A stretch of DNA of 64,000 bases from an uncultured Alphaproteobacteria bacterium (lineage in GTDB: Bacteria; Pseudomonadota; Alphaproteobacteria; Geminicoccales; Geminicoccaceae). Made by a program: the position numbers and the translations under genes. The notes under the pieces were generated by a model. The model was not told the origin of the DNA. It did not search any database and saw only the letters and a list, made by a program, of their open reading frames with translations. Location of the stretch: contig CALKJU010000020.1 in NCBI GenBank assembly GCA_937995535.1, forward strand, positions 124,001-188,000, written 5' to 3'. How positions within the stretch are numbered: position 1 is the stretch's first letter; the number at the start of each line of letters is the position of its first letter. Below, in pieces: positions 3,607-7,225 of this stretch.

Positions 3607-4620
3607 ATGGACCTGATCGACTTGGCTGCGAACGAGACCGGCGTGGCGGCGGAGCCGTTGCCAGCGCCGGTCGCTGCCGCGCTGCGCCGGCTGCCGGCTG
3701 CGGTCGTCGTCGACGTCACCAACAGCTGCAATCTCCGCTGCCCGGTGTGCCCGGTCACCATCGCGATGACCCGTAAACGCGGCATGATGCGGATGGAGGT
3801 GTTCGCCGCGATCGTCGACGGCTTCCGCGACCGCGCGGAGAAGCCAGAAATCTTCTTCAACTTTTCCGGCGAGCCGACGCTCAACCCGCTGCTCCCGGCA
3901 TTCATCCGGCTGGCCGTCGACAACGGCCACAAGACCTTCCTCAGCACCAACGCCACCAAGCTGACCGAGAAGCTGTCGCGGGCACTGATCGAGGCCGGAC
4001 TGCATCGCGTCTATCTCTGCCTCGACGGCTTCGACGCGACCGCACAGGAGGCCTACCGCGTCCGCTCCAAGTTCGTAATGGTCAAGGCGAACATCGAGCG
4101 GTTCGTGACGCTGCGCAACGCGCTCCGGCCGGGCCGGCCGCTCTGCATCCTGCAGACGCTGCTGACACGCTATTCCGAAGGGCAGCGCGACGCCATCGTC
4201 GCCTGGGCACGCGCGATCGGCATGGATCGTGTGCGCTTCAAGAGCTTCAGCACCGGCACCTACACCACGCCGGAGGAGCGCGCGCTCGCCGAGCGCTTTC
4301 TGCCGACCGACCCGAGCCTGCGCCGAACCGGCGACGCCCCGCCGCCGCGCAGCTGCGGCGAGCCCCTGCACTCGCCGGTGGTGTTCTACGACGGGTCGCT
4401 CGGCCTGTGCTGCATCGACTACGACCGCCGGGTGCGGATGCCGAATATCCGCGAGCATGGTTTCGCCGCGGCGTTCCTGTCCGACGCGGCCGTTGCCGCG
4501 CGCGCGGCCGGCTATCGCAAGCAGCACGCGATCTGCCGCGACTGTGCCTACAATGCGGCGGAGTTCCGTGGCTTTGTCGTCGATCTGCGGGAGCTGCCGG
4601 CGGGCGACGGCATGGCCTGA
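3607..4620 (+). CDS. Radical SAM protein with SPASM-like cluster
   Basis: A 337-residue radical S-adenosylmethionine enzyme. The SAM-binding [4Fe-4S] cysteines are C41, C45 and C48 in the order CNLRCPVC, and FSGEPTLNP (87-95) is the SAM-binding GEP-like loop. C-terminal cysteines C250, C268, C269, C310 and C313 fit a SPASM-type auxiliary cluster domain. Proteins of this architecture modify peptides, glycans or small molecules; the substrate is not visible here. It is divergent from the glycosyltransferase operon with about 150 bases between, so it may act in the same surface-glycan pathway, but this is inference. The ATG at 3607 is used because the family N-terminus starts nearby; no strong ribosome site precedes it. 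Confidence 0.85.
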   Translation: MDLIDLAANETGVAAEPLPAPVAAALRRLPAAVVVDVTNSCNLRCPVCPVTIAMTRKRGMMRMEVFAAIVDGFRDRAEKPEIFFNFSGEPTLNPLLPAFIRLAVDNGHKTFLSTNATKLTEKLSRALIEAGLHRVYLCLDGFDATAQEAYRVRSKFVMVKANIERFVTLRNALRPGRPLCILQTLLTRYSEGQRDAIVAWARAIGMDRVRFKSFSTGTYTTPEERALAERFLPTDPSLRRTGDAPPPRSCGEPLHSPVVFYDGSLGLCCIDYDRRVRMPNIREHGFAAAFLSDAAVAARAAGYRKQHAICRDCAYNAAEFRGFVVDLRELPAGDGMA

Positions 4621-4654
4621 TCTCGGCAGGTGGCCACCAGCGGCCAGGGATAGG

Positions 4655-4683
4655 TTGACTTTCCTATCAAGAGAGATTATTCG
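4655..4683 (+). promoter_or_regulatory. Sigma-70-type promoter of the tail-spike cassette
   Basis: TTGACT at 4655-4660 and TATTCG at 4678-4683 are separated by 17 bases, within a short AT-richer patch that stands out from the surrounding GC-rich DNA. It lies about 40 bases upstream of the first cassette gene, which also has a good GGAAGGA ribosome site at 4706-4712. Confidence 0.55.
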
Positions 4684-4721
4684 TTCCGCGCGGCCTATCC
4701 GCGACGGAAGGACATCGACGC

Positions 4722-5048
4722 ATGAGCACGCTGCTTCCCGTGGACGACAACGGGCATCCGATCGGCATTGTCGGCTACGTGCCGCAGGGCACGCTGCGCC
4801 TGGCCGTCGGTGCAAGCTCGGTCCGCAACAGCGTGCCGATCGCCGACGACGTGACGATTGTGAGCCTGATCGCCACCGGGCCGTGCCGCTTCGAGGTCGG
4901 CGGTCCCGGCGTCGTTGCCGACGCCACGACCAGCCCGTTCCTCTATCCGGGCCAGTACGTCGACCTGCCGTTGCGGCGCAATGAACGGCATGTCGCCTTC
5001 GTCGCCGAGGACGCGCCCTGCTTCGCCTACATCATCGGGCGTGCCTGA
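4722..5048 (+). CDS. Small phage-like protein, function unknown
   Basis: A 108-residue protein with no signal peptide or membrane segment. It opens MSTLLPVDDNGHPIG and is rich in short beta-like stretches, which resembles the small beta-sandwich proteins coded just before tail-fibre genes in phage genomes; I do not recognise a named family. The ATG at 4722 has a GGAAGGA ribosome site nine bases ahead. It is the first gene of a three-gene unit, ends one base before the next start, and is followed by a tail-spike-like gene. A decoration or adaptor role beside the spike is an inference from position. Confidence 0.7.
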   Translation: MSTLLPVDDNGHPIGIVGYVPQGTLRLAVGASSVRNSVPIADDVTIVSLIATGPCRFEVGGPGVVADATTSPFLYPGQYVDLPLRRNERHVAFVAEDAPCFAYIIGRA

Positions 5049-5049
5049 G

Positions 5050-5223
5050 ATGACGCGACCGCTCGGGCTGGGGCTCCGCCGCCTTCGGATCGGGCCGCCG
5101 AGCGCCGCGGCGCCGGTGTCCCTCCCGCCGCCTCCCCCGCCGGGCCAAGCCCTGCTGGTGACCGAGCTCGGTCACCTCCTGATCACCGAGACCGGCGCCG
5201 CGATCGCCGTGGAGCAGCCCTGA
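5050..5223 (+). CDS. Very small phage-like protein
   Basis: A 57-residue frame between two well-supported genes: its ATG at 5050 follows the previous stop by one base and its TGA overlaps the next ATG (TGATG at 5221-5225). It has a proline run near residues 25-31 and then a short repeat-like tail, LLVTELGHLLITETG. Similar L-x-TE-x-G repeats occur in tiny phage tail-region proteins. The tight coupling on both sides supports real translation; the function is unknown. Confidence 0.6.
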   Translation: MTRPLGLGLRRLRIGPPSAAAPVSLPPPPPPGQALLVTELGHLLITETGAAIAVEQP

Positions 5224-7049
5224 TGCCCAACCAGCAGATCCATGAGCTGGGCGCCGCGCCGGCGCTCGTGCCGGCCGACCAGATCGTCGTCTCGACGGCC
5301 GCCGGCCAGTTCACCCGCCGCGCCGGGCTCGCGGCGCTGCCCTACAAGGCACCGCCCGCTTCCAGCGTCGTCCGGACCGTCGCCGCCCGGCTCGCCGAGT
5401 CCGTGTCGGTGCGCGACTTCGGTGCGGTGGGCGACGGCGCCGCCGACGACACGGCGGCCTTCGTCGCCGCGTTCGCGGCCGGTGCTCGCGAGGTCCGTGT
5501 GCCGGCCGGCAGCTACCGCCTGACCGCCCCGCTCTCCGTGCCGGCGCGCCTGTCCTTGCGCGGGGCGGGCCGCGACGCGACCTTTCTCGCCATCGACCAC
5601 ACCGGTCACGGCTTGGTCTGGGGTGGCAGCGAGTACATCGACGGCTTTGTCGAAGGACTCTGTCTGACCCTGCCGGCGAGCGGTGCCGGCTCGGGACTGC
5701 GCGTCCAGGGGAACCATTTCGTCACGCGGAACCTCCGGGTGCGTGGCGGCAGCGCCACCGCCTGGGGCATCGAGCTCGACCGCTGCAACGACTTCCACCT
5801 CGCCGACGTGCTGATGTGGGGCGACGGCGCGGACGCGTTCCTCGCCAACGGCGTCTGGATCCGCAACGGCAGCGGCGCCGCGGTCAATTACGGCGACGGC
5901 AGCCTGACGCAGCTCTCAGTCCGGCTCGGTCGCAACGACACCAAGGGCCTCTACCTCGAGGGCGCCAACAGCGCCCCGGGTATCATCAACAATATTCTTG
6001 TCGCGAAAAGCAACATCATCGCCCCCGGACGGACCGGCTGCATCGGCGTGCACCTGAAGAACGCCCGCCGCATCGCGCTGGTCTCGGTGGATCTCGAGAG
6101 TCTGACGACCGGTCTGCGCGAAGAAGGCAGCGCGGCCGGCATGTCCGAGGTCAACAGCTATATCGGTGTCTACTTCTTCGCCAACGACACGCCCGCCGCG
6201 GTCGCCTATTCGGACAACAACGGGACGATCGCCGGCGCCGTGCGCGGCCGGACCTTCGTCGGCTGCGACAACTTTCCGGGGCTCGCCGGCTTCGGCGACG
6301 GCGACGCGATGGTCCAGCGCGCCCTGTGGTTCCCCTCGGTGGGGACCGGACTGCCGGCGGTGCGCGCCGTCGAGCAGAGCAACAACTGGCGCATCGATAG
6401 GGGCGGTGCGGCGTACATCCAGTTCGGCCCGCCGGCGACCGGCAACAACTCGCGCATCACCTGCGGTGTCGACGGGCTGACACCGCCCTATGATGCGACC
6501 CTGTACATGGGCGACCCGAACATCCGTCGGGTCACGGTCGACGCGCCGCTGCACATGTTCGAGCGGACCTCGGTGCCGCCGATGGCGGCCGATCAGATGA
6601 CCGTGTTCGCCGACGGGGCGACGTGGAACCCCGGCTTCGAGCGGGGCCTCTACACCCGCCAGGGCGGTGTGTGGCACCGCCTCGTCGACACCCGCAGCAA
6701 GGGCTGGGTGGCGGTCAACGAGCAGACCGGGACGAGCTACACGCTGACCGCGGACGACCTCGGCGACATCGTCGAGATGGCCGGAGCCGCGGCCAAGACG
6801 GTGACGGTGCCGCAGTTCGCCACCGTGCCGGGTGCGTCCGGCAGCAAGGCACCCGGGGCGACCAACGTCGTGACCAACCGCAAGGTGCACCTGCAGGCGA
6901 CGGTGACCCAGATCGGCGCAGGTGCGGTGACGCTGTCGCCTGCGGCGGGGGTGACGCTCAGCGGTCCGACCAGCACGGCCGGCGATGGCCAGAGCCTCGT
7001 GCTGCGCTGGACCGCACCCGGTACGGTGCGCGTTCGTCTGGTCGCTTGA
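5223..7049 (+). CDS. Pectate-lyase-type tail-spike/tail-fibre-like protein
   Basis: A 608-residue protein built like a phage tail spike. Residues 1-45 (QIHELGAAPALVPADQIVV, then FTRRAGLAAL) resemble the N-terminal attachment region of tail fibres. Residues about 60-300 begin with VSVRDFGAVGDGAADDTAAF, the signature of the pectate-lyase-3 right-handed beta helix used by polysaccharide-depolymerising spikes, with repeated Asn and Gly turns after it. The C-terminal 120 residues form another beta-rich region, as in trimerising ends. No signal peptide is seen. It is the last gene of the 4655-7225 unit, followed by a terminator. It probably binds or cuts a surface polysaccharide, but no other phage structural gene is present, so whether it serves a particle, a tailocin or the host is open. 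Confidence 0.8.
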   Translation: MPNQQIHELGAAPALVPADQIVVSTAAGQFTRRAGLAALPYKAPPASSVVRTVAARLAESVSVRDFGAVGDGAADDTAAFVAAFAAGAREVRVPAGSYRLTAPLSVPARLSLRGAGRDATFLAIDHTGHGLVWGGSEYIDGFVEGLCLTLPASGAGSGLRVQGNHFVTRNLRVRGGSATAWGIELDRCNDFHLADVLMWGDGADAFLANGVWIRNGSGAAVNYGDGSLTQLSVRLGRNDTKGLYLEGANSAPGIINNILVAKSNIIAPGRTGCIGVHLKNARRIALVSVDLESLTTGLREEGSAAGMSEVNSYIGVYFFANDTPAAVAYSDNNGTIAGAVRGRTFVGCDNFPGLAGFGDGDAMVQRALWFPSVGTGLPAVRAVEQSNNWRIDRGGAAYIQFGPPATGNNSRITCGVDGLTPPYDATLYMGDPNIRRVTVDAPLHMFERTSVPPMAADQMTVFADGATWNPGFERGLYTRQGGVWHRLVDTRSKGWVAVNEQTGTSYTLTADDLGDIVEMAGAAAKTVTVPQFATVPGASGSKAPGATNVVTNRKVHLQATVTQIGAGAVTLSPAAGVTLSGPTSTAGDGQSLVLRWTAPGTVRVRLVA

Positions 7050-7100
7050 TCCAGATCAACGCGGACCTGCGCGAGCTCGGTTAACTGACCTCCGCGGGGC

Positions 7101-7134
7101 GCGGTGGCCGAGGCTCCTTGAGCAGAGCCACCGC
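7101..7134 (+). repeat. Inverted repeat downstream of the tail-spike gene
   Basis: GCGGTGGC (7101-7108) and GCCACCGC (7127-7134) can form an 8-bp hairpin with an 18-base loop in the 3' untranslated region. There is no T run, so it is not a terminator by itself; it may stabilise the 3' end of the mRNA. Confidence 0.4.
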
Positions 7135-7187
7135 TCAGCTCGCGAGGTCGCGCGCAGTCGGGGAAGAACGGCGCGACCCGTCGATCA

Positions 7188-7225
7188 CGCGGAGAGGGAG
7201 CCTGCCATCCCTCTCCGCGCTTTTT
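7188..7225 (+). terminator. Rho-independent terminator of the tail-spike cassette
   Basis: A perfect 12-bp stem, CGCGGAGAGGGA (7188-7199) with TCCCTCTCCGCG (7208-7219), an 8-base loop and then a T run at 7221-7225. The T run is on the plus strand only, so it stops the upstream cassette and not the converging exonuclease gene. Confidence 0.85.

Follow-up and report, generated by a model that had tools for sequence, protein, structure and literature searches.

Gene transfer agents (GTAs) are particles formed by proteins derived from caudoviricetes, in which mostly random host DNA is encapsidated and delivered to other cells (PMC9662315). Their genes are fully endogenised, often at several loci, and their own genome cannot be fully packaged; they are mostly inherited vertically and diversify together with their hosts (PMC9662315). 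Few types of GTA are known, and reports of podovirus-like ones amount to a single case (Faecalibacterium, 2026).

An example of a spike encoded apart from the other particle genes can be found in RcGTA, the GTA of Rhodobacter capsulatus. Its beta-helix tailspike, TspA, is encoded away from the main cluster; the tspA promoter is a binding target of GafA, the regulator of the GTA, and the protein degrades biofilm (PMC13420450). In Bradyrhizobium S06B-Bj, podophage particles have been described whose sequence reads are spread evenly over the host genome, and which their authors call reminiscent of GTAs (PMC10127595).

The locus described here lies in a 64-kb stretch of DNA (the window) from an uncultured bacterium of the family Geminicoccaceae. 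It is a cassette of three genes, P1, P2 and P3, that spans 4651-7219 from promoter and operator to terminator (Table 1). The cassette is likely to encode the polysaccharide-directed spike of a domesticated, short-tailed particle of phage origin. Genes for the head, portal, tail tube and terminase of this particle would then be those of an 11-gene cluster, unlinked to the cassette, on the same chromosome, and the particle itself is most likely a GTA. Judged by its genes, it would probably belong to a short-tailed kind of GTA that has not been reported before from Alphaproteobacteria; searches of the open-access literature found no account of the element in this class.

Table 1. Features of the three-gene cassette, in positions of the window.
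Feature	Position	Strand	Description
Palindromic operator (candidate)	4651-4666	.	TAGGTTGACTTTCCTA, TAGG-N8-CCTA; overlaps the -35 box; recurs 5' of orthologous cassettes and of the head operon
Sigma-70-like promoter	4655-4683	+	TTGACT (4655-4660), 17 nt, TATTCG (4678-4683); from sequence; orthologous cassettes have a TTGACA-type promoter at the equivalent position
P1	4722-5048	+	108 aa, all-beta; proposed spike adaptor or head-decoration component
P2	5050-5223	+	57 aa; proline-rich middle; C-terminal motif LLVTE.GHLLITETG
P3 spike	5223-7049	+	608 aa; conserved N-terminus (QIHEL...), beta-helix, variable C-terminal domain
P3 right-handed beta-helix, residues ~60-330	5400-6212	+	AlphaFold2 model
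Intrinsic terminator	7188-7219	+	12-bp stem; T-rich tail

A preliminary description of this DNA presented the cassette as a self-contained unit of three tightly linked genes with a sigma-70-like promoter and a perfect 12-bp terminator. The open reading frames, both junctions (TGA-G-ATG between P1 and P2, TGATG between P2 and P3) and all 12 pairs of the terminator stem are found as described. The promoter is present and has counterparts in orthologous cassettes, but it matches only 8 of 12 consensus positions, is weak by that measure, and was not reported by a simple promoter scan. The cassette is self-contained as a transcription unit but not in its regulation, for its operator is common to the head cluster. 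Gene calls in the window confirm that the cassette has no gene for capsid, portal, integrase or lysis nearby, but the source genome does encode a capsid, a portal and a terminase elsewhere. The cassette has no match in PADLOC, so a reading as a defence system was dropped.

Evidence for P3 being a spike comes from both sequence and predicted structure. Residues 61-221 match the family Pect-lyase_RHGA_epim (PF12708, E 1e-9; Pfam), and PHROGs give tail and tail-spike matches (best 9e-11), mostly over residues 35-125, which bears out the pectate-lyase-3 spike signature noticed earlier. Structure prediction, which had been proposed as a check on the 608-residue protein, yields the beta-helix: the model, built from 14 orthologues, is confident in this region (pLDDT mostly 70-95 over residues 61-300) and of low confidence elsewhere. 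Its fold matches are alginate C5-epimerases, followed by the tailspikes of CBA120, HK620 and Sf6 and by phi29 gp12. The two marks of a phage tailspike, an N-terminal anchor and a right-handed beta-helix, are thus both found in P3 (Pfam, PHROGs, orthologues, model and fold matches). The protein exists in two forms, of 608-619 aa in the source genome and Geminicoccus and of 766-787 aa in the others, with the N-terminus and beta-helix common to both. Among named phages, P3 finds matches to its C-terminal domain only.

Neither P1 nor P2 matches a family in Pfam or PHROGs. For P1 there is also no annotated homologue, no match among named phages, and nothing significant by sequence among solved structures; its orthologues are single copy and 50-68% identical in most Geminicoccaceae genomes. 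The P1 model is all-beta (pLDDT 87), and its weak jelly-roll or cupin-like fold matches (TM at most 0.51) are not interpretable as function. P2 is kept between P1 and P3 in relatives and is fused to a LamG-like protein in one locus (L151). The earlier idea of a likeness between the small proteins and phage tail-region proteins has no counterpart in Pfam or PHROGs but is supported by synteny in relatives. Both proteins may help to mount P3, which would bind or cleave polysaccharide on the surface or in the biofilm of recipient cells.

The cassette is conserved across Geminicoccaceae, in single copy and with the same gene order. Relatives had been suggested as a place to look for the same three genes, and at least 14 of the genomes retrieved have P1, P2 and P3 in this order; carriers in the family include Geminicoccus harenae, Geminicoccus flavidas, Arboricoccus pini, KatS3mg117, HRbin39/40 and MAGs. 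Glycosyltransferase genes lie beside the cassette in the window, and this neighbourhood is conserved in several genera. A surface glycan is a plausible substrate for P3, as first proposed, although the neighbourhood suggests the link rather than proves it. By analogy with RcGTA and capsule, the neighbouring glycosyltransferases could make the receptor polysaccharide. A radical SAM/SPASM gene that also neighbours the cassette, at 3607-4620 of the window, is not at the equivalent place in the relatives examined.

The other particle genes form a cluster that includes genes for a repressor, portal, scaffold, T7-type capsid protein, tail tubular proteins A and B (TTA, TTB) and large terminase (TerL). 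Pfam and PHROGs assign them to the portal family PF12236, a Bbp19-like family, the T7-type scaffold PF05396, the capsid family PF19821, tail proteins of TTA/TTB type, TerL (PF17289, phrog_38) and a divergent HTH/S24 repressor. The preliminary description had considered a contractile particle encoded elsewhere; particle genes are indeed found elsewhere in the genome, but PF12236, PF05396, PF19821 and the tail tubular proteins are of podovirus type.

In the source genome, the cassette is on contig C20 and the cluster lies at the ends of two other contigs. The end of C39 carries the repressor, c8, the portal, the Bbp19-like gene, the T7 scaffold, the PF19821 capsid and an 89-aa gene; the end of C24 carries TTA, TTB, an internal-protein-like gene and TerL. 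Because an IMG/VR contig (L143, 86-88% nucleotide identity) runs over both ends, the cluster is probably contiguous. The first gene of the head operon, c8 (142 aa, L067:3880-4305), has no database match and is the fastest evolving, with dN/dS 0.45.

Since all of the structural genes are phage-derived, and such clusters are entered in IMG/VR as proviruses, one alternative is a prophage, ordinary or defective, with the cassette as its spike genes and the head cluster as a remnant. This is improbable. The capsid gene is single copy in 28 of 31 Geminicoccaceae genomes, with a similar spread for TerL, and at a threshold of E<=1e-60 exactly one match is found in 45 of 289 Alphaproteobacteria genomes, some of them only 0.9 Mb in size. 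The element is always in one copy, family-wide and class-wide, and is intact and under purifying selection. Its GC content equals that of the host. At the source locus, the integrase and replication genes that accompany structural genes in a prophage are absent from the ten genes beside the cluster (Pfam; further flanks by gene calls only). These ten are of host type: N-formylglutamate amidohydrolase, a transglycosylase, DUF1465, an aminotransferase, gatB, an amidase, NAD kinase, an MttB homologue, an enolase-superfamily protein and an alcohol dehydrogenase. Plasmid carriage was rejected, as the capsid gene has no match on 72,556 plasmids, and the capsid protein is only 52-60% identical to those of the nearest named phages. 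More distant podovirus-like structural clusters in two genomes (L083 in G007, L085 in G031; portal 29-31% identical) are probably ordinary prophages.

The cluster is carried by IMG/VR contigs of 4-36 kb (L143-L222), with 279 candidate loci in one scan. Many of these contigs look like pieces of bacterial chromosome that have been given the label of provirus. The only IMG/VR match to P1 (L061/L148) does not point to a free virus with the cassette, because the contig carries the same chromosomal-type cluster.

In most genera, including that of the source genome, the cassette is unlinked from the cluster. In one genus (L041, L044, L046-L049) and in the IMG/VR contig just mentioned, the two adjoin. 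The preliminary description would have given way to a prophage or GTA elsewhere in the genome that held the three genes in normal order; this arrangement is found in part, with the cassette directly beside the GTA-like cluster in that one genus. One further genome (G081) carries an orphan P1-like gene together with two others (L033), one of 41 aa and one of 235 aa whose product has an N-terminus of P3 type, about 0.96 Mb from its head cluster.

In most genera, a palindrome, TAGG-N8-CCTA, occurs in two promoters: that of the cassette and the divergent one of the repressor and head operon. Counted with one sequence per genus, it is present in 8 of 11 promoters of the cassette, against a mean of 0.37 and a maximum of 3 in 1000 shuffles, and in 10 of 15 promoters of the head operon, against a mean of 0.58 and a maximum of 4. 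The palindrome was recognised in the same data as were used for the enrichment test, and upstream sequences within a genus are related. The enrichment is clearly highest at a gap of 8 bp. The cassette site is the only exact one in the window and one of 8 in the 3.9-Mb genome, and no phage-like gene lies beside any of the other seven. In the head promoter of the source genome the palindrome has one mismatch, TAGGAAGAGATACCTG, and several related IMG/VR clusters carry a similar site. An exact operator-like palindrome, TAGGATATAGATCCTA, also lies 5' of a 259-aa gene (L230:1501-1516, G000:C116).

Because the shared palindrome is far above the shuffles, one repressor probably controls both the cassette and the head operon. 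The candidate is a regulator with a Cro/C1-type HTH, S24-like in the relatives, whose gene lies next to the head operon in divergent orientation; this regulator would repress both loci by way of TAGG-N8-CCTA, and particles would be made when this repression is relieved.

The capsid gene is found in 25 of 27 P1-bearing genomes against 17 of 69 others (Fisher 7e-10, phylogeny not corrected for), and outside Geminicoccaceae in both of the two P1-bearing genomes (p 0.05). In Arboricoccus pini (L076, L032), TerL is in two frames, TTA is split, P3 is missing and P1 stands alone. The element looks decayed there, and the frameshift may be a sequencing error. Since P3 is lost alongside a broken TerL and TTA, cassette and cluster seem to decay together. 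This joint loss, the co-occurrence, the common palindrome and the P1-type genes inside head operons all indicate that the cassette belongs to the particle.

The preliminary description favoured a different role, in which a domesticated spike would work on its own, cutting or modifying surface polysaccharide of the cell that makes it. Such a role would suit the glycosyltransferases beside the cassette, both in the window and in several genera, and the resemblance of the beta-helix to alginate epimerases and lyases. It is nevertheless very unlikely, because it leaves aside the operator common to cassette and head cluster, their adjacency in one genus, the P1-like genes within head operons, and the absence of P3 from Arboricoccus, where TerL is frameshifted and TTA split. 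With the cassette so tied to a phage-head cluster, an own-glycan role is not needed.

Where the spike sits on the particle is a separate question. Other families have a spike of their own inside the cluster, before TerL, and in some of them (L098-L100, L104, L105) a helical gene of 103-133 aa, which may be a small terminase, lies between spike and TerL. Geminicoccaceae clusters have neither at this place. The in-cluster P3-like proteins of other families were rejected as P3 orthologues, because their matches mainly cover the generic start of the beta-helix and at least some carry a different, T7-fibre-like N-terminus. Given this in-cluster tail spike of other families, P3 may be a second, head-borne spike.

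The cassette would then be a capsid-borne head-spike module with a role like that of the RcGTA head spikes, rather than a tail spike. P1-like genes do lie between the scaffold and capsid genes in L151, L153 and G002, followed by a spike-type gene in the first two and as a P1-P2 pair in the third, and a P1-like protein has a weak match to a Hoc-like head-decoration family (E 0.059). A head-borne position is possible but doubtful: as Geminicoccaceae lack an in-cluster tail spike, P3 is the only spike found there, its PHROG matches are mainly to tail spikes, and P1 has no match by sequence among solved structures.

Purifying selection acts on the cassette and the cluster alike. The dN/dS values are 0.06-0.21 for P1 and P3 and 0.03-0.22 for the cluster genes other than c8. 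Portal, scaffold and TerL have values of 0.10-0.16, as expected only if DNA is packaged, and this makes it unlikely that the particle is free of DNA or acts by killing, like a bacteriocin. That alternative draws on the lack, between the internal-protein gene and TerL, of the small-terminase-like gene of other families.

A gene transfer agent is the probable identity of the particle because the three features of the definition that can be tested in sequence (PMC9662315) are all present. Its proteins derive from caudoviricetes by gene content (PF12236, PF05396, PF19821, TerL, TTA/TTB). It is endogenised at several loci, as seen in C20 versus C39/C24 of the source genome and in G003, whose particle genes lie far apart. 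Inheritance appears mostly vertical: the element is single copy family-wide, and its tree partly follows that of the host marker UvrD (Mantel r 0.66, p<=0.0005), with only 6 of 12 splits in common, partly through weak nodes, and with this one marker standing for the host. The particle would most likely package host DNA and transfer it, and co-packaging of cassette and cluster is unlikely because the loci are unlinked. Against this reading stands that no lysis genes were identified and that P1 lacks an annotated homologue.

In G003, the portal, capsid and P1-like genes (L070, L095, L034) lie at 1.05, 2.99 and 3.27 Mb on one 5-Mb contig, and three genes of the 89-aa type stand in tandem 3' of the capsid gene.

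On balance, the element appears to represent a further, independently domesticated lineage of podovirus-type GTAs in Alphaproteobacteria, found in about one sixth of the sampled genomes, 0.9-Mb ones included, in which the Geminicoccaceae spike forms a separate operon with the same operator as the head cluster. If this is true, a conserved, single-copy, repressor-linked podovirus-type element of many alphaproteobacterial families, now listed in virus databases as provirus fragments, widens the known range of host-controlled gene transfer.

Several known systems resemble this element in part. The Pelagibacter phage Hodr, a podophage with a PF19821 capsid, is homologous in capsid (52%) and portal (34.5%), but it is an isolated phage with a 34-kb genome, whereas the element described here consists of about 11 genes clustered on a chromosome, with no integrase or replication gene seen next to them. 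Bradyrhizobium S06B-Bj is similar by description, being podophage-like and GTA-reminiscent, but its TerL is assigned to another family (terminase-GpA) (PMC10127595). FpGTA of Faecalibacterium is a close parallel in organisation: a podovirus-like, GTA-like element of two operons with receptor-binding genes apart from the head and terminase operon (PMC12946183). It differs in its Firmicute host, in the lysis genes of its second operon, and in that its particles and packaged DNA have been shown by experiment, while the alphaproteobacterial element is known from its genes.

RcGTA is likewise phage-derived, vertically inherited and spread over several loci (PMC13420450, PMC9662315), but it is siphovirus-like, whereas the capsid, portal and tail families here are of T7/podovirus types. 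Membership in the RcGTA-like GTAs (Rhodogtaviriformidae) was rejected: the RcGTA marker GTA_TIM (PF13547), for which Caulobacter served as positive control, is absent from the source genome and from all family members except G022, an assembly with 8% contamination. RcGTA and the new element never occur in the same uncontaminated genome, a pattern that is not significant (p 0.19). As with TspA, an unlinked right-handed beta-helix spike seems to be co-regulated with the capsid genes, here judging from the shared motif; if so, the cassette would be the second case of an unlinked, co-regulated polysaccharide spike after TspA of RcGTA.
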